From: Mesoterricola sediminis
GTDB taxonomy: Bacteria > Acidobacteriota > Holophagae > Holophagales > Holophagaceae
DNA: 64,000 nt
Direction of reading: 5' to 3'
NCBI RefSeq assembly: GCF_030295425.1
Contig: NZ_AP027081.1
Span: forward strand, 3,455,001 to 3,519,000
The notes beneath the pieces were generated by a model that saw only the letters and a program-made list of their open reading frames with translations, had not been told where the DNA came from and ran no database searches. Shown here in pieces: positions 3,262 to 44,465 of this stretch. Numbering within the stretch: position 1 is the first letter of the stretch; every line of letters begins with the position of its first letter. A program made the translations under genes and the position numbers.

Positions 3262-3321
3262 TGGCGGAGAGAGAGGGATTCGAACCCCCGGTGAGATCAC
3301 TCCCACACCTGATTTCGAGTC
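3262..3321 (-). repeat. attL-like copy of tRNA-Ser(CGA) 3' part (60 bp)
   Basis: All 60 bases are identical to 19,524-19,583, covering the encoded CCA end, acceptor and T stems, variable arm and the anticodon loop, and ending in the anticodon stem. Identity stops there (GTCGTGC here, GTCAGGC in the tRNA), which places strand exchange in or near the anticodon stem-loop, a usual place for tyrosine recombinases. Without a 5' half it cannot be a functional tRNA. Confidence 0.92.
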
Positions 3322-3424
3322 GTGCACGTTTAGTAATTCATGCTCACCTCATCAAGCTAAATCAGATCATTTCAATACCGCATATTTCCATCATGTTCCC
3401 ATAGGCCCCATTCTATCGTCGTCC

Positions 3425-3446
3425 CTGTAGGATGGCTGTAGGATGG
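3425..3446 (+). repeat. Tandem 11-bp repeats by attL, candidate integrase arm sites
   Basis: Two perfect copies of CTGTAGGATGG stand back to back between the attL copy and the integrase start. A similar 11-bp-spaced pair (TGTAGGACA and TGTAGGATG) is present at 19,469-19,488, just inside the right att copy. Short direct repeats at both inner ends of an element are what arm-type sites of tyrosine integrases look like. The position also suits autoregulation of the integrase. Confidence 0.55.
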
Positions 3447-3465
3447 AAACCACTCCGGAGGTCCC

Positions 3466-4845
3466 ATGGGAACGGAACGGAAGGCGCTCACCGACAGCCT
3501 GGTCCGGGGCCTGGAGCCCGGCGAGAAGAACTACTCCGTGTGGGACGCGAAGCAACCCGGCTTTGGCTGTCAGGTCACGCCGGCGGGGGTGAAGTCCTAC
3601 GTCTTCAAGTGGGTCCTCAGCGGCAAGCAGGGCTGGCTCACCATCGGCCAGACGCCGGCATGGAACGCCGACCGCGCCCGGAAGTACGCCGCCCAGCTCC
3701 GCGAGGAGGTGGACAACAAGCGCGATCCTCGTCGGCTCCGCCTAGACGAGCTCGAGGCCCCCACCATGGCCAAGCTCATGGACGACTACTTCGAGAAGCA
3801 CGTGCTCCGGAAGAACAAGCCGCGGACCCAGAGCGAAGCGCAGACCAACATCCGGATCATCAAGGAGCGGCTCGGCGCTCTCAAGGTGAAGGACTGCACC
3901 GACACCGACGTCCAGGTGAAGCTTATGGACGCCCTGGAGGACACCCCCATCCGTGCCAACCGGGCGCGCGCCGCGCTCTCCGTCGCCTTTGGCCTGGCGG
4001 AGCTCTGGAAGTGGCGCCCCCAGAATTCGAACCCCTGCGCGCTTGTCTCGAAGTACCCCGAAAACCCGCGCAAGCGGTTCCTCGCCACTGAGGAGCTACA
4101 GGAGTTGGGCGCCGAGTTGGGCCAGCGGGAAGCCTGCTGGCCCTATTCCGTGGCCGCGGTGCGCCTCCTGATCTTCACCGGTGCCCGGAAGGACGAGGTC
4201 CTCGGCATGAAGTGGGCGGACATCGACCTTGAGCGGCGCCAGGTGCGCATCACCGAACACAAGACGAGCGGCACCATGGGGGACAAGTACCTGCCCCTCA
4301 ACGGGGGGGCCCTGGACGTCCTGGGCTTCCAGCTGGACAAGGAGGGCCAGTTGGTCCTCGACGGCAAGGGCCGGCCCCGGCGGCGCCCGGGGGCCCTGCC
4401 CCGCGTCCTGGGCAACCCCTTCGTCCTGGTGGGAAGCGGCCGCGAGGATCCGTCCCACCCGGACCGGCGCCTGCCCTGGCACCTCATGGACCTGCAAGGC
4501 CCCTGGAAGGTCATCCGCGAGGCCGTGTCGGTGAAGCTCACCAGCGCAAAGAAGGTGGCCGCCTGGAAGAAGTGGGCCGCGCTGCCAGCGCCCGATCGGC
4601 TCAAGAGCCCCATGGAAGCGCCCGGCATCATGGACGTGCACCTGCACGACCTGCGCCACACCTTCGGGGCCTTCGGCGCCGGCTCGGGCCTGTCCCTGCC
4701 CCTCATCGGCGGCCTCCTGGGGCACTCCCAGGCCTCCACAACACAGCGATACGCCCACCTTGCGCCGTCGCCTCTCCAGGAGGCCTCCGAGGGCATTAGC
4801 GCACGGTTGGCGGCCGCCATGAAAAAGGCCCCCGAAGGGGCCTGA
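3466..4845 (+). CDS. int: Tyrosine recombinase / integrase
   Basis: A 459-residue integrase that would catalyse site-specific insertion into, and with an excisionase removal from, the tRNA-Ser gene. The N-terminal 85 residues form a DUF4102-type arm-binding domain (P-G-F-G-C-Q-V-T-P-A-G-V-K-S-Y). A core-binding SAM-like domain follows. The catalytic domain shows the first Arg in T-G-A-R-K-D-E-V, the H-D-L-R-H box, G-H-S-Q-A-S-T-T and the nucleophilic Tyr in Q-R-Y-A-H. Length and domain order match P4-type integrases. The start is supported by GGAGG six bases upstream of the ATG. The 3' end of the gene also contains a terminator for the opposite strand (4,822-4,843). Confidence 0.95.
   Translation: MGTERKALTDSLVRGLEPGEKNYSVWDAKQPGFGCQVTPAGVKSYVFKWVLSGKQGWLTIGQTPAWNADRARKYAAQLREEVDNKRDPRRLRLDELEAPTMAKLMDDYFEKHVLRKNKPRTQSEAQTNIRIIKERLGALKVKDCTDTDVQVKLMDALEDTPIRANRARAALSVAFGLAELWKWRPQNSNPCALVSKYPENPRKRFLATEELQELGAELGQREACWPYSVAAVRLLIFTGARKDEVLGMKWADIDLERRQVRITEHKTSGTMGDKYLPLNGGALDVLGFQLDKEGQLVLDGKGRPRRRPGALPRVLGNPFVLVGSGREDPSHPDRRLPWHLMDLQGPWKVIREAVSVKLTSAKKVAAWKKWAALPAPDRLKSPMEAPGIMDVHLHDLRHTFGAFGAGSGLSLPLIGGLLGHSQASTTQRYAHLAPSPLQEASEGISARLAAAMKKAPEGA
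4822..4843 (-). terminator. Rho-independent terminator on the minus strand, inside the integrase 3' end
   Basis: Read on the minus strand this is AGGCCCC, a TTCG loop, GGGGCCT and then a run of T. It would end transcripts from the minus-strand gene at 4,977-5,765. It lies within the last codons of the integrase gene and touches its stop codon, so the two transcription units are convergent and share bases. Confidence 0.85.
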
Positions 4846-38234: not shown

Positions 38235-39799
38235 GGGCCCGGGCGGCGGTGTTCGGGCTCGCGGCCCTGGCCCTGGCGGGCCAGGCCCCCTTCGTCCAGA
38301 CCACGGCCGCCGGCGACCGCCTCCGGCCCCTGCCGGCGCCCCGGTTCCGCCGCGGCGCCCCGCCCCCGGGACCCGCCGTCGCCGTCCGCCTCGGGGAGCC
38401 CCGCCAGACGGTGGAGGGTTTCGGCGGCGCCCTGACCGAGGCCTCGGCCTGGGTCCTGGCCCAGCTCCCTCCCGCGCGGCGCCAGGAGGTGCTGGACCTG
38501 TGCTTCGGGCCCGGCGGGGCGGGTTTCACCCTGGCCCGGGTGCCCGTGGGGGCCTGCGATTTCAGCGTGGAGGGGCGCTGGTCGTACGACGACCACCCGG
38601 GGGACGAGGCCCTCGCGCACTTCTCCATCGAGCCCGACCGGCGCGGTTTCAAGGACGCCCGGGATCCGGCCTACGCCCTCCTGCCCCTGGTGAAGGACGC
38701 CCTGGCCCGGGAGCCCGGGCTGCGCCTCGTGGCGAGCCCGTGGACGGCCCCGGCCTGGATGAAGGACAACGGGGCCTGGTACGGGGAGGGCCGCGGCGGC
38801 GCCCTGCTGCCCCGGCACTACGACACCTTCGCGCGCTACATGGTGCGCTACCTCCAGGCCTACCGGGACGAGGGCGTCCCCATCTGGGCCGTGACCCCGG
38901 AGAACGAGCCCGGCGGCAACGGCGGCCAGTGGGAGAGCATGGAGTTCACGCCGGAGGCCCTCTCGGACTACATCGGCCTCCATCTGGGCCCCCGCCTGAA
39001 GGCGGCGGGCTTCGGTGGCGTCAGGATCATCCAGTACGACCACAACCGGGACGCCGCCGCGGTGCGGTTCACGGAGGCCGCCCTGAAGGGGCCCGCGGCG
39101 CCCTATGTGTGGGGCACCGGGGTGCACTGGTACGAGCGGACCCGGGACGCGGGCGCGGACGTCCTGGACCGGCTCCGGGCCCTCGCGCCCCAGTGGACGC
39201 TGCTCCACACCGAGGGCTGCGTCGACGCCCTCGCCGACGAGGTCAACGCGCCCGGGGGGAGGTTCCTGGGCTGGCGGAACGACGCCTGGTGGTGGACCGC
39301 CGGGGCCGCGGACTGGGGCCACCGCTGGGCCCCCGAGGCGGACCGGGCCGACCATCCCCTCTACGCCCCGGCCCTGCGCTACGCCCGGGACATGCTGACC
39401 GGGCTGAACCACGGCCTCGCCGGCTGGATCGACTGGAACATCGTCCTGGACCGCCGGGGCGGCCCCAACCACGTGGGCAACGTCTGCGGCGCGCCCGTGA
39501 TGGTGGACACGGCGGCGGGGGAGGTCTACGTCACGCCCCTCCACCCGGTGCTGGCCCACCTGAGCCGCTACTTCCGCCCCGGCGACCGCGTGCTCGCGGT
39601 GGACGCGGGGGGCGGGCTCCTCGCCGCCGCGGCCCGGGACGGCGCCCACCTGAAGGTGGTGATCCACAACCCCGGGGATGCGCCGGTGGCCTACGCCCTG
39701 CGGGCCGGCCGGGCCTGGGCGAGGGTGGCCATCCCGGGACGGGCGATCCAGTCCGTGCGGGTCCCGCTGCGGGGCCTGGATGGCCCGCGGAAGCGGTGA
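38231..39799 (+). CDS. GH30 glycosidase (beta-1,6-glucanase/glucosylceramidase-like), exported
   Basis: A 522-residue enzyme with a signal peptide (A-L-A-L-A-G-Q-A). The phrase T-V-E-G-F-G-G-A-L-T-E-A near residue 60 is a GH30 hallmark. The acid/base is E226 in V-T-P-E-N-E-P and the nucleophile E328 in L-L-H-T-E-G-C. The C-terminal part is the beta-sandwich typical of the family. GH30_3 enzymes hydrolyse beta-1,6-glucan, and laminarin carries beta-1,6 branches, so a debranching role fits the locus. Translationally coupled to the preceding gene. Confidence 0.9.
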   Translation: MRARAAVFGLAALALAGQAPFVQTTAAGDRLRPLPAPRFRRGAPPPGPAVAVRLGEPRQTVEGFGGALTEASAWVLAQLPPARRQEVLDLCFGPGGAGFTLARVPVGACDFSVEGRWSYDDHPGDEALAHFSIEPDRRGFKDARDPAYALLPLVKDALAREPGLRLVASPWTAPAWMKDNGAWYGEGRGGALLPRHYDTFARYMVRYLQAYRDEGVPIWAVTPENEPGGNGGQWESMEFTPEALSDYIGLHLGPRLKAAGFGGVRIIQYDHNRDAAAVRFTEAALKGPAAPYVWGTGVHWYERTRDAGADVLDRLRALAPQWTLLHTEGCVDALADEVNAPGGRFLGWRNDAWWWTAGAADWGHRWAPEADRADHPLYAPALRYARDMLTGLNHGLAGWIDWNIVLDRRGGPNHVGNVCGAPVMVDTAAGEVYVTPLHPVLAHLSRYFRPGDRVLAVDAGGGLLAAAARDGAHLKVVIHNPGDAPVAYALRAGRAWARVAIPGRAIQSVRVPLRGLDGPRKR

Positions 39800-39866
39800 G
39801 CCCGGCCCTGGACGGCCGGGGTCCCAGGTAGAATGGACCCCATCGTCTGGTGAAGGGAGGCAGGTC

Positions 39867-40928
39867 ATGGTGGGCAGGATGGCACTGGTCGCGGTGCTGG
39901 CCGCGGGGGCGCTGGGGGCGCAGGGCGTCTCGCGGGAGACCGCGTCGCGGTTCGCGGGGCACGTGCTCGTGTCGGTGGACCGGGAGTACCCCAACAAGCT
40001 GGACCACACGATGGCGGGCCCCCAGGACGTGCGCGGGCCCAAGGACCTGCATCCGGCCTTCTACGGCTGCTTCGACTGGCATTCCTCCGTCCATGGCCAC
40101 TGGATGCTGGCCCGCGTCCTGCGGACCCACCCCGCCCTGCCCGAGGCCGCGGGGATCCGCCGGGTCTTCGACGCCCACTTCGCCCCCGCCGCGGTGAAGG
40201 CCGAGGTGGACTACTTCCGGAGCCCGGGACACCGGGGCTTCGAGCGCACCTACGGCTGGGCCTGGCTCCTCAAGCTCCAGGCGGAGCTGCGCACCTGGGA
40301 CAGCCCGGAGGGCCGGCGCTGGGCCGACCAGCTCCAGCCCCTGGCGGACGCGGTGGCCGCGGAGCTGCGCGCCTTCCTGCCCAAGCTCACCTACCCCAAC
40401 CGCACCGGGGTACACCCCAACACGGCCTTCACCCTCTCCCTGGCCCTGGACTACGCCAAGGCCGCCCAGGACGGCCCCCTGCAGGCGCTGCTGACGGAGC
40501 GGGCCCGCGCCTACTACGGCCGGGACCGGCAGGGACCCCTGGCCTGGGAGCCCGGCGGCGAGGACTTCATCTCCCCCTGCCTGGAGGAGGCGGCGCTCAT
40601 GGGCAAGGTCCTGCCGCCCGCCGAGTTCCGGCCCTGGCTGGAGGGCTTCCTGCCCGGGCTTCTCAAGGGAGCGGTGCCCCGGCCGGCCCACGTGTCGGAC
40701 CGCACCGATCCCCGGATCGTGCACCTGGACGGCCTCAACCTGAGCCGGGCCCGGTGCCTGCGGGAGATCGCGGCCGGCCTTCCCCCCCGCGACGCCCGGC
40801 GCAAGGCCCTGCTGGTCTCCGCCCAGGCCCACGAGGAGGCCGCCCTGCCCCACGTCCTCAACGGCAACTACGAGGGCGACCACTGGCTGGCCACCTTCGC
40901 GGTGCGGATGATGGAGGCCCCGCGCTAG
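39867..40928 (+). CDS. DUF2891 family protein, exported
   Basis: A 353-residue protein with a signal peptide (to about residue 19, A-L-G-A-Q-G) and GGGAGG before the ATG. The DUF2891 pattern is visible: H-P-A-F-Y-G-C-F-D-W-H-S-S-V-H-G-H-W, then T-Y-G-W-A-W-L-L-K-L and N-G-N-Y-E-G-D-H-W-L-A-T-F. The helix-rich fold and the conserved His/Asp/Trp residues resemble (alpha/alpha)-barrel sugar enzymes, but no activity is established for the family as far as I know. It follows the GH30 gene by 67 bases and may share its transcript. Confidence 0.85.
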   Translation: MVGRMALVAVLAAGALGAQGVSRETASRFAGHVLVSVDREYPNKLDHTMAGPQDVRGPKDLHPAFYGCFDWHSSVHGHWMLARVLRTHPALPEAAGIRRVFDAHFAPAAVKAEVDYFRSPGHRGFERTYGWAWLLKLQAELRTWDSPEGRRWADQLQPLADAVAAELRAFLPKLTYPNRTGVHPNTAFTLSLALDYAKAAQDGPLQALLTERARAYYGRDRQGPLAWEPGGEDFISPCLEEAALMGKVLPPAEFRPWLEGFLPGLLKGAVPRPAHVSDRTDPRIVHLDGLNLSRARCLREIAAGLPPRDARRKALLVSAQAHEEAALPHVLNGNYEGDHWLATFAVRMMEAPR

Positions 40929-40932
40929 CGCA

Positions 40933-41047
40933 GGTAGATCGAATCACCGGAACCGCGTTGTTCCGATCCTTCGTGCTGGCGAGGGTGAGTAAAAAACCCG
41001 TACGCCGAGAGCGCCGGGACGCGGAGTCACGCGGAGTCAGCTTCGCG
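40933..41047 (+). repeat. 115-bp direct repeat, copy A
   Basis: Begins GGTAGATCGAATCACCGG and ends CTTCGCG. It is identical to 41,119-41,233 apart from one base; similarity goes on for about 50 bases further. The period is 186 bp. It starts five bases after the DUF2891 stop codon. Confidence 0.93.
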
Positions 41048-41118
41048 GTTCAGCGCGCCGACCCACACCACCCAGGCCCTGGCCCTCAAGCGCCTCCTGA
41101 CCCAGCTGGGCTCGTGTC

Positions 41119-41233
41119 GGTAGATCGAATCACCGGAACCGCGTTGTTCCGATCCTTCGTGCTGGTGAGGGTGAGTAAAAAACCCGTACGCCGAGAGCGC
41201 CGGGACGCGGAGTCACGCGGAGTCAGCTTCGCG
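41119..41233 (+). repeat. 115-bp direct repeat, copy B
   Basis: Second copy of the repeat at 40,933-41,047. It is also the outer part of the left arm of the long inverted repeat at 41,119-41,827. Confidence 0.93.
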
Positions 41234-41827
41234 ACCCACCGCGCCGACCCATACCACCCAGGCCCTGGCCCGCTGGCGCTGGCCGCGATGCTGCGCATCG
41301 CTCGGCTGGGGGCTCCGGGCCTTCCGCATGCACGCCTGTGGGTGCCCTGCGCCCCCAGCCTTGGACGGGCCTGGGCTCAGCCGCCAGATCTGCTTGAGGA
41401 ACTTCAGCCATTCCGGGTGCCGGTGCAAGGACGCGTGCACGGTCCGCCTGATCCTGGGTGGCCTTTCGCCGCCGGACGGTGTTGCAATCCACCTGGAGCT
41501 GGTCGGCGGTGGGCCGATCCCCGGTCCCGTCCGCGAGCAGCAGCAGGATCCGGCATCTTGGGCCGAAACTCCAACCCAGGCCCGCCCAAGGCTGGGGGCG
41601 CAGGGCACCCGCAGGCGTGCCTGCGGAAGGCCCGGAGCCCCCAGCCGAGCGATGCGCAGCATCGCGGCCCGCGCCAGCGGGCCAGGGCCTGGGTGGTGTG
41701 GGTCGGCGCGCTGAACCGCGAAGCCGACTCCGCGTGACTCGACATCTCAGCGCACTCGGTGTACGGGATTTTTACTCACCCTCACCAGCACGAAGGATCG
41801 GAACAACGCGGTTCCGGTGATTCGATC
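41119..41827. repeat. Long imperfect inverted repeat (arms about 255 bp)
   Basis: The left arm (41,119-41,377) is nearly the reverse complement of the right arm (41,573-41,827), with about 195 bases between. The arms keep phrases such as GATGCTGCGCATCGCTCGG and GTGCCCTGCGCCCCCAGCC. The outer parts match the 115-bp direct repeat; the right copy is the most diverged (TTTTTACTCACCCTCACC). No intact gene lies in the arms or the loop. It might be a decayed insertion sequence with long ends, a MITE-like repeat or a convergent-gene hairpin. Together with copy A it fills the 907 bases between the DUF2891 gene and tadA. Confidence 0.85.
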
Positions 41828-41835
41828 CGCCTGCC

Positions 41836-42288
41836 CTAGCGCCTGCGGCGGAAGAAGGCCTGGAGCTGCTCCCGGCATTCCTCCGCCAGGAGGCCGCCTT
41901 CGAAGGCGATGCGGTGGTTCAGGTTGGCGCCGGCGAGGGTGTCCAGCATGCCGCTGACGCCCACCTTGGGATCCGCCGCCCCGAAGACCACCCGGGCCAC
42001 GCGCGCGTGGGTGAGGGCGCCGAAGCACATGAGGCAGGGCTCGAGGGTGACGTAGAGGGTGGCGCCGGTCATGCGGTAGTTGCGGAGCCAGGCGCCGGCG
42101 CTGCGCAGGGCCATGATCTCGGCGTGGGCGGAGGGGTCGTGGGAGGTGACGGGGCAGTTGTGGCCCCGGGCGACGAGCTTGCCGTCCGCGACGAGGGCGG
42201 CCCCGATGGGGACCTCGTCGAGGCGGTCGGCCTTTTCCGCCTCCTCCAGGGCCAGCTTCATGAAGTAGATGTCATCGCCCGACCACAT
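41836..42288 (-). CDS. tadA: tRNA-specific adenosine-34 deaminase
   Basis: A 150-residue zinc deaminase that converts A34 to inosine in tRNA-Arg. The Zn/catalytic motifs are S-A-H-A-E-I-M and P-C-L-M-C-F-G-A. Length and the N-terminal D-D-I-Y-F-M-K-L-A-L-E-E-A fit TadA. The ATG at 42,288 is the only start that keeps the family N-terminus. The downstream end is nine bases from the inverted repeat region. Confidence 0.95.
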   Translation of the reverse strand: MWSGDDIYFMKLALEEAEKADRLDEVPIGAALVADGKLVARGHNCPVTSHDPSAHAEIMALRSAGAWLRNYRMTGATLYVTLEPCLMCFGALTHARVARVVFGAADPKVGVSGMLDTLAGANLNHRIAFEGGLLAEECREQLQAFFRRRR

Positions 42289-42305
42289 GCAGCCGCTCCC
42301 GGCTC

Positions 42306-44465
42306 CTATCTTGCCATCATCGCGGCGAAGGTCCGCTCCAGGTCCACCTGCTCCGCGTGGAGGCCCAGGGCCCGCAGGGCCTCCCGCAGGGGCTGGTAGA
42401 CGGCGGTGTCCTCCTCGGCGCGCCGCTCCAGGATCCAGCGACGCTCCCAGGGGCGCAGGTCCCTGGCGGGGCGCTGGTCGAGGCGGTCCCACGCGGCCTG
42501 GAACCAGGCGCGCATCTGGGGGAAGGCCCCCTGCCGGCGCAGCTCGGCGGCCACGCGCCGCAGCACCGGATAGGGCAGCGCCGCGCGCCAGTCGGCGCCC
42601 GGGGACCAGTGCGGCAGGTCCTCGGCCAAGGCGAGGAGGGAGGGGCACCCGGGATGGAACCGGGACCAGGCGATCCAGGCCTTCCAGAGCCCGGCGTCCC
42701 GGGGCCAGGTGCGGAGGCGCTCCTCCAGCCGGGGCAGGACGGCCTGGGCGGCGGCGCCCCACAGGTCCGGGTCCGGCTTCCAGGGGGCGTCGGGCCCGAA
42801 GGGGAGTTCGAGAAGGGCCTCGGCGGCGTCCCCGGCCAGCTCCGGCTCCAGGCCCCGCTCGGGCATGCGCGCCAGGAGCAGGCGGAACCGGGCCCGGCGC
42901 GCGCCCTCGTGGCCGGGTTCGGCGGAGAGGAGGCGCCGCAGGCGCTCCAGGAGGGGGGTGCCGTGGGCCGCCAGTTCCGCGGCGAGGGCCTGGGGCGCGG
43001 GCAGGGCGTCCCCGGAGGCCAGCAGCTCCTCCCCGCGCAGGAGGGCCCAGCGGGGCCGCGCGTCCCAGCCGTGGCGGGCCCGGGCCTCCGCGTGGGCCCG
43101 GGGGCCCGGGATCTCCCAGCGGAGTTCGGAGGGGGACCAGGCCGCGAGTTCGGGGGCCTCCCGCAGCGCGGTCCAGCGCAGGAGCCAGGGCGGCAGGCCC
43201 AGGAGGGCCAGGCGCAGCGGGGGCGGCTGCTCCGGCATGGGCGGGCGCCGGTGCCGGACCTCGTCCCGCGCGAAGAGGAGGCGGCGCCAGGCCCCGGGGT
43301 CGGCGGTGGTGTCCAGGTGGCCCCGGGCCAGGAAGGCGGTGCGCACGGCGTGGGAGCCGCCCCAGGCCGAGGCCTCGTCCATGGCGGCCCGGGCCTGGTC
43401 CCAGGCGCCCTGGCTGGCCGAGTTCACAGCCTGGTTGGCCAGGAGGGCCGACCGCAGGTCGCAGTAGGCCTCCCAGCCCTTCGGGGCGAGGGGCTCGGGG
43501 GGGCCGGCCGGGGTCAGATCCTCCAGGAGGCGGGCCACGGCCGTGAAATCCCGCCTGCGGCGGTACGGCTCGAGGAGCGAGGTCAGGTCCTCGGCCCGGG
43601 GCCACACGCTCCCCGGCGGCGCCGTGAAGCGCCCCGACAGGGTTTCGGGCAGCCGCCCGGCCCCCTCCAGGCAGGTCATCCAGAGGCGGAGCAGGCCTCC
43701 GTTCCGGGGGTCCGCGGCCACCCGGGGCTCCAGGTCCTCCGCCACCTGGGCGAAGAGGTCCCGCCAGCCCGAGGATTGGCCCAGCTGGATGGACCCCAGC
43801 CGGGCGACGATGGCGGACGCCTCCAGGTGCCAGCCCGGGGCCCGGGTCAGGCGGCGGAAGGCGTCCTCGGCCTCCCGGTAGAGCTCCCCGGCCAGGGCGT
43901 CGGCCCCGGAGCCGGCGAGGGCGATGCGGTCGTCGGCGGGGGCCGGCCCCGGCACGGGGTGCCAGAGGGGCACCTGGATCCGCCCCTGGGCGTCCAGGGC
44001 CGCCAGGCGGGCCCGCAGGAGGTTCATGGCCAGGGCCAGGTCCTCCAGCAGGGCGTCTCCCTGGCCGGGGTGCTCGTGGAGGAAGGCCTCCCGCTCCTCC
44101 CACCGGGCCCGGGCGCCCCGGGCGTGGAGGGCCGCCAGGAGGCGCTCCCCGGTGGGGATCCCCCGCCCCTTCCCGGCCACGTCCCCGGCGGGGCCGAGCA
44201 GGGCCCAGTCGGCCCCCAGGGCCCCCTTCAGGTCCTGGGCCTGGGCCGGGTTGAGGACCTCCAGCCCCCAGCCCCCGCCCACGGCCAGGCGCTGGTAGGC
44301 CTCGTCCTTCACCAGGTCCCGGGTGGCGACCAGGTTCGGGCGGACGCAGAGGGTCCAGCGGGGCTCGCCCCGCGTGGCCCGGCCCCGGGCCTGGAGGAAG
44401 TCGTCCCAGGGTCCGGCCAGGGCCTGGACCGTTGAGAAAGCGAGGAAGATCAGCGCGCGGTTCAC
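42306..44465 (-). CDS. Exported protein with TPR-like helical repeats, unknown
   Basis: A 719-residue protein with a signal peptide (M-N-R-A-L-I-F-L-A-F-S-T-V-Q-A-L-A). The first 110 residues (D-F-L-Q-A-R-G-R-A, then G-A-D-W-A-L-L-G-P) look like a small alpha/beta domain; the rest is almost entirely helical with TPR-like pairs rich in Ala, Leu and Trp (for example A-I-V-A-R-L-G-S-I-Q-L-G). No enzyme motif is seen. It starts six bases after the stop of the oxidase gene upstream and ends 17 bases before tadA, so these genes form one operon. I do not recognise the family. Confidence 0.75.
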   Translation of the reverse strand: MNRALIFLAFSTVQALAGPWDDFLQARGRATRGEPRWTLCVRPNLVATRDLVKDEAYQRLAVGGGWGLEVLNPAQAQDLKGALGADWALLGPAGDVAGKGRGIPTGERLLAALHARGARARWEEREAFLHEHPGQGDALLEDLALAMNLLRARLAALDAQGRIQVPLWHPVPGPAPADDRIALAGSGADALAGELYREAEDAFRRLTRAPGWHLEASAIVARLGSIQLGQSSGWRDLFAQVAEDLEPRVAADPRNGGLLRLWMTCLEGAGRLPETLSGRFTAPPGSVWPRAEDLTSLLEPYRRRRDFTAVARLLEDLTPAGPPEPLAPKGWEAYCDLRSALLANQAVNSASQGAWDQARAAMDEASAWGGSHAVRTAFLARGHLDTTADPGAWRRLLFARDEVRHRRPPMPEQPPPLRLALLGLPPWLLRWTALREAPELAAWSPSELRWEIPGPRAHAEARARHGWDARPRWALLRGEELLASGDALPAPQALAAELAAHGTPLLERLRRLLSAEPGHEGARRARFRLLLARMPERGLEPELAGDAAEALLELPFGPDAPWKPDPDLWGAAAQAVLPRLEERLRTWPRDAGLWKAWIAWSRFHPGCPSLLALAEDLPHWSPGADWRAALPYPVLRRVAAELRRQGAFPQMRAWFQAAWDRLDQRPARDLRPWERRWILERRAEEDTAVYQPLREALRALGLHAEQVDLERTFAAMMAR

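Follow-up and report, generated by a model that had tools for sequence, protein, structure and literature searches.

The composite repeat in the window (the whole 64,000-nt stretch of Mesoterricola sediminis DNA analysed here) is best explained, with a probability of roughly 85%, as a non-autonomous, internally deleted, MITE-like derivative of an IS630-family insertion sequence (IS), which has unusually long terminal inverted repeats (TIRs, ~270 bp), was inserted at a shared CTAG and carries arms that most likely serve as insulators. As an IS630-derived deletion product the element is mostly ordinary. The part that is not ordinary, and is worth following, is the arm itself, which is shared and conserved in shape. 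The repeat thus becomes readable as a rare CTAG word, end letters that rebuild stop codons, and long ends with a conserved fold.

The direct family (D1) consists of two 170-nt copies, 40924-41093 and 41110-41279, which are 92% identical at a spacing of 186, the period given by an earlier note made from the sequence. Inverted arms of 266 nt each (41110-41375 and 41575-41840) are 91% complementary and have 199 nt between them, and an outer inverted pair is present at 40922-41093 and 41671-41842. Copies, arms and loop are therefore real, but the sizes first given for them (115, 255 and 195 bp) were slightly low; similarly, the borders, including the CTAG ends, are 40925-41839, slightly beyond the 40933-41827 noted. 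The claim that the region holds no intact gene stands: a Pfam scan of the longest ORF that the loop holds on its reverse strand (41213-41662), the only ORF scanned inside the repeat, gave nothing at E <= 0.01. Below, A denotes the outer part of each arm (~136 nt) and B its inner part (~122-125 nt) (Table 1). The spacer between the tandem A units equals the 3' terminus of a host gene, which flanks the family copies located at 3.53 and 3.12 Mb. Consequently, the window copy carries flanking DNA of another locus, which may have come either by transposition of an element with a doubled end or by recombination between copies.

Table 1. Parts of the repeat element in the window
Feature	Position	Strand	Remark
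Left CTAG	40925..40928	.	The DUF2891 gene (+ strand) stops at TAG 40926-40928; same offset to GATCGAATC in 20/41 family ends
Presumed left target duplication, TA	40926-40927	.	
Whole element between presumed TA duplications, 909 bp	40928..41836	.	IS630-family internal-deletion derivative; extent set by analogy with the UBA692 element and 16 other IS630 copies bearing CTAG ends
Outer left A unit (arm's terminal region), extra tandem copy	40933..41068	+	
Spacer between tandem A units	41085..41118	+	34 nt; host-gene 3' end (…AALKRLLTQLG), captured flanking DNA
Inner left A unit	41119..41254	+	
Left B unit, cloverleaf	41254..41378	+	P1 enclosing P2, P3 and P4; 127.9 bits; z -4.2
IS630 transposase fragment HRHPEWLKFLKQIWRLSP	41372..41425	-	Residues 237-254 of the UBA692 transposase, 83%
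IS630 transposase fragment RCRILLLLADGTGDRPTADQLQVDCNTVRR	41469..41558	-	Residues 38-67 of the UBA692 transposase, 83%
Right B unit, inverted cloverleaf	41572..41696	-	129.3 bits
Right A unit, inverted	41697..41828	-	Element's transposase-proximal end
Right CTAG	41836..41839	.	41836-41838 is the TAG stop of the TadA-like deaminase gene (- strand)
Presumed right target duplication, TA	41837-41838	.	

Outside the M. sediminis genome, the best match among the 61 family genomes searched lies in a genus-mate (G029), where two arms are 1.7 kb apart. Their contig, of 5,954 bases and belonging to Holophagaceae bacterium UBA692 (DBMS01000078.1, which is both L065 and L087) contains a 2.2-kb element bounded by 269-bp TIRs that are 91.8% identical. 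Between these ends are an IS630 transposase (NF033545, 266.5 bits against a cut-off of 100, with 323 residues searched) and, convergent with it, a GxxExxY gene (TIGR04256, 113.1 bits against a cut-off of 35), whose product also falls within PF13366 (PDDEXK_3, of the PD-(D/E)XK nuclease superfamily). The transposase frame changes near residue 323, and an end resembling the transposase of a Geothrix element (L092) follows in another frame. Because of this frameshift, no fully intact long-armed copy has been seen; judged by its genes and ends, the UBA692 element is parent-like, with putative activity. The window loop aligns with positions 1051-1108 and 456-543 of this element and contains two fragments of its transposase. 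In the M. sediminis genome no IS630 transposase scores over the cut-off, the eight weak matches having 29 bits or less. With two fragments only, and nothing over the cut-off elsewhere in its genome, the window copy is a derivative rather than an IS. It has its ends in common with a full-length element, lacks coding capacity and exists in several copies, as does an IS630-derived MITE, and the earlier idea of a decayed or non-autonomous mobile element was right in this sense.

The M. sediminis genome (G000; 4,524,604 bases, single contig) gives 102 matches to the region at 24 separate places. At 13 of these loci, A is present at both ends in inverted orientation, with B and loop remains between (L021, L022, L023, L024, L026, L030, L034, L036, L038, which is the window copy, L039, L040, L043 and L044). 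The others are a single complete arm (L033), short A/A' palindromes (L025, L029, L037, L042) and fragments (L027, L028, L031, L032, L035, L041). Copy sizes across the family are roughly 0.5-1.8 kb. One B unit has been lost or shortened in the two-ended copies L021, L026, L034 and L044. Nine of the 13 (L021, L022, L024, L030, L036, L039, L040, L043 and L044) restart at parent position 484, and such shared internal-deletion junctions mean that deleted forms either multiplied or exchanged sequence. Between copies, B units are 96% identical and A units 83%; A units within one element are 89% identical. Exchange between copies thus happens, given the greater likeness of A units within elements and the shared junctions. 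The transposase is destroyed in every copy in this genome, including L036 with its open GxxExxY frame (178/183 residues, 85% to UBA692; 3294-3827, - strand; G000:C1:3120293-3120826).

Several smaller observations belong to these loci. GxxExxY-like genes or remains occur outside the repeat copies in L034 (156-539; 55%, 128 residues) and L030 (near 990-1189). The loop of L022 (2621-3055, G000:C1:107620-108054) holds a threefold tandem repeat with a 169-bp unit made of a transposase piece and a B end, and the right outer end of L034 has a small tandem array of a 17-bp, GATCGTTCCGGTGACTC-like unit (G000:C1:2704286-2704337). An exact 21-mer of the A unit, searched against genome contigs, found 0 stretches in a set that perhaps does not include this genome.

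CTAG, the target word, is rare outside gene ends; it occurs 17 times in the 64 kb, against 185 expected by base composition. In the window, the left CTAG holds the stop of the DUF2891 gene and the right CTAG that of the deaminase gene, and the two genes are convergent. The window copy and the UBA692 element each have CTAG with the flanking TA of the IS630 family at their two ends. TIRs are detectable in 17 of 80 IS630 relatives, and among these CTAG is present at the left end in 17/17 and at the right end in 16/17, the remaining one being cut by the contig end. IS630 itself reportedly targets the TA within 5'-CTAG-3', a result attributed to Tenzen et al. (1990/1991). The Geothrix element, which has an IS630 transposase, a GxxExxY gene and 31-bp ends, lies at a TAG stop. 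The borders of the family copies, which the earlier note had wished to see along with the copies themselves, carry CTAG at 22 of 41 outer ends (at the same offset in 20 and shifted by one in 2; absent in 19). These 41 ends were hand-picked from a regex listing that allowed up to 4 substitutions; inner tandem copies, internal copies of L034, and matches judged spurious (from L029, L030, L034, L036 and L043) were left out. A coding-like frame stops in 18 of the 22 CTAG ends compared with 7 of 28 background CTAGs drawn from the window and the flanks of 23 loci only (Fisher p 1.5e-4), although purging of harmful intragenic insertions could give the same pattern. Many element ends have a second TAG, in frame and nine bases past the first, e.g. 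CTAGGGCAGGTAG; at the right ends of L036 and L024, which have lost CTAG, this second TAG seems to serve as the stop of the flanking gene.

Sites lacking the element are present in congeners. The neighbour genes of L024 are ~25 bases apart in G015 and ~42 bases apart in G023, with no element between them, while in G005 CTAG is kept at the stop and is followed by another palindromic repeat; CTAG is missing in two of the three relatives having both flanks. At the L026 site, ~30 bases separate the flanks in G023, the sole empty relative, which also lacks CTAG. For the window locus, no clean empty site was found in G005, G029 or G015. The intergenic DNA there is 1.17 kb in G029 and 5.5 kb or more in G015, and in G005 it holds 266 bp of another palindromic repeat with CTAG on either side, a repeat that may have been inserted there independently, into the same CTAG word.

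The very long hairpin that the earlier note proposed for a transcript of the region is borne out in silico only: as single-stranded RNA, the 919-nt stretch has a predicted energy of -741.6 kcal/mol versus -434.5 +- 6.7 for 20 dinucleotide shuffles, which excludes chance. However, local structure has the better support, namely a separate cloverleaf in each arm with compensatory substitutions, and the interpretation in that note is, overall, partly supported. This cloverleaf occupies the innermost 125 nt of an arm and is kept in close relatives by compensatory changes while the letters change. An alignment of B units (21 rows: 15 of the 23 in the M. sediminis genome and 6 from congeners) gives a P1 of 10 pairs, a P2 of 7 pairs with a variable 4-nt loop, a P3 of 7 pairs and a long P4. 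Among 20 distinct rows, 13 of 44 pairs have both-sided changes, whereas shuffles have 3.3 +- 1.3 (0/500 as high) and slid versions <= 4; since the cloverleaf was derived from the same alignment, it is favoured relative to the slid versions. Single B sequences fold far below shuffles; energy minimisation returns this cloverleaf for L067 and for each of the two L184 arms, and a partly different fold for L068 and L069.

A model of the cloverleaf finds 23 copies in the M. sediminis genome, 3 in G029, 5 in G033 and 2 in G023. These four positives, out of 77 family genomes, all belong to its own genus, and the remaining 73 have none; G005 and G015, which are single-contig congeners, have no B unit at all. 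A phylum-wide search was positive in 1 of 297 genomes (its own), a weak negative, as no more than 11 candidates were scored per genome and 11 of the 23 copies in its own genome were recovered. Rfam 15 gives no match at E <= 1 for window positions 39500-43000 and two matches for L065-L069, both under the gathering score. A promoter scan of the region found nothing. A terminator scan gave two weak - strand sites, both within the left A units, and none with a T tail at the arms in the inward sense, so classical termination is unsupported. In a literature search, no report was found that combines a palindromic cloverleaf with the terminal inverted repeat of an insertion sequence.

A related arm is present on an element of another family. 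Two cloverleaf matches in G033 (2.2e-16 and 5.1e-11) are the arms of a single 1.44-kb element (L184, 1425-2864), which are 264 bp long and 78% complementary. Its IS5-type transposase is split into two ORFs, of which the C-terminal part is over the NF033580 cut-off of 110 (119.8 bits) and the N-terminal part below it (100.5 bits); a scan for an IS630 transposase or GxxExxY gave no match. Like IS5-family members, the element combines an IS5 transposase with a TNA-type 3-bp duplication (TAA on either side), and the left TAA is the stop of the upstream ORF. An IS5 nested in an IS630-type element is unlikely, since the outermost ends are IS5-like, with the TAA duplication and the letters GAA… of four IS5 copies in the M. 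sediminis genome. The evidence for this IS5-type arm comes from a single contig, and the MAG to which it belongs has a listed contamination of 8%. The four IS5 copies in M. sediminis (L189-L192; G000 near 378161, 2160816, 2758302 and 3144167) are ~1,079 bp long with 21-bp TIRs, and L189 is 94% identical to the rest. In each of them, a subterminal palindrome of 131-158 bp contains TGGGTCGGCGCA, which resembles the GCGCCGACCCA found where A meets B in the IS630 arms. G005 has 91 occurrences of TGGGTCGGCGCA and G033 has 25, compared with 1 in each for the backward control; those in G033 often form inverted pairs spaced ~290 bp apart. The pattern suggests a further dispersed palindromic family.

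The steps that would have produced the window copy can be proposed as follows. An IS630 transposase acting in trans would have moved the element into the TA of a CTAG at which two convergent genes ended. Since the element starts with G and ends with C, duplication of the TA would rebuild CTAG and both TAG stops. The transposase and GxxExxY genes would have been lost through internal deletions, after insertion or earlier in the moving copy; the left terminal unit would have been doubled together with a piece of a different host gene; and element copies would have exchanged sequence. The arms are most likely passive insulators. A read-through transcript from either flank would fold into the cloverleaf, and the folded arm would end or stabilise the incoming transcript. 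Because a transcript of either flanking gene reads A and then B in the same sense, such insulation would work from both sides. In the full-length element, the folded arm may shield the transposase gene from read-through; in the UBA692 element, B precedes the start of the transposase ORF, ending at 2014 while the ORF starts at 2089. Folded ends that protect transposase genes from read-through are known for IS10 and IS50.

Other origins and roles have to be weighed against this account. That the window holds two broken, opposed copies of one IS would explain why the arms are inverted and why transposase pieces remain. However, the complete IS that this predicts was not found; instead, the parent-type element carries the same long inverted ends, the A-B-loop-B'-A' order is present at 13 two-ended loci (partly deleted arms counted), and both transposase pieces share one orientation. 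The long inverted repeat is thus the element's own terminal pair, and so improbable an origin has been rejected. It is also unlikely that the copies are now a domesticated host structure of transposon origin, i.e. dispersed bidirectional 3'-end or terminator elements kept at gene ends. The homogeneity of the B units relative to the A units, the fold kept with compensatory changes and the gene stops at CTAG ends would all fit such a role, but the position of the stops follows from CTAG targeting together with loss of harmful insertions, the likeness of B units may come from sequence exchange among copies, one B has been lost in L021, L026, L034 and L044, and G005 and G015 have none.

The main rival to the insulator reading is a DNA role involving the GxxExxY nuclease-like protein, in which the cloverleaf would be extruded as a four-way junction and serve as the GxxExxY substrate in recombination of copies or replication of the element. 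We consider this improbable, even though the protein belongs to PF13366, its frame in L036 has stayed open over 178 residues although no copy retains an intact transposase, and exchange between copies does happen. Moreover, one-sided changes in the cloverleaf have no clear bias of G-U over A-C, a bias that would point to RNA. Against a DNA role, the IS5-type element has arms but no GxxExxY match, and only 31-bp TIRs were detected on the Geothrix element with IS630 transposase and GxxExxY genes, which argues that GxxExxY does not need the arms. Passive insulation is the reading preferred here. A broader proposal, offered tentatively and at somewhat less than even odds, is that the arm is a transferable cloverleaf end module, selected for its fold rather than its letters and taken up within one genus by elements of two unrelated transposase families, IS630 and IS5. 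It would allow these elements to lie at stop codons and would shield host genes and transposase genes from the transcripts of one another; should the fold act as DNA, the nuclease-like GxxExxY passenger might use the arm as its substrate instead. If an arm common to IS630 and IS5 elements is indeed selected for its shape, then IS ends can hold modules other than the site bound by the transposase, and it becomes possible to test what the GxxExxY genes on such elements do.

Among known systems, the nearest are IS630 and its Tc1-mariner relatives (IS630, ISY100), which are alike in transposase family, in the TA/CTAG target and in having CTAG at the ends. ISY100 inserts almost only at TA, which it duplicates (PMC2170065). 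The window family differs in its TIRs of ~270 bp, compared with ~31 bp in the IS630 relatives measured, and in its GxxExxY passenger, which is present in only 2 of 80 IS630 relatives (L087 and L092). RUP, a MITE of IS630-Spn1 in pneumococcus, is similarly a many-copy, non-autonomous IS630-type element at TA (PMC2229807), but is 107 bp long with short TIRs, whereas copies in the window family measure ~0.5-1.8 kb, have long structured arms and contain mosaic remains of genes. MITEPsy1 is likewise a miniature element, inserted after CTAG or YTAA (PMC3189936); it is 100 bp long with 18-nt TIRs and tentatively IS5/ISPsy2-derived. Finally, REP/BIME sequences are also many-copy extragenic structured palindromes, and long TIRs surround some RAYT genes (PMC3733652). 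REP/BIME palindromes are GTAG-tagged, 20-40 nt long and accompanied by a RAYT gene. Compared with them, the unit in the window is much larger, the anatomy of its arm is different, its ends are of the IS630 type, and a transposase of the IS200/IS605 type was not seen with it.
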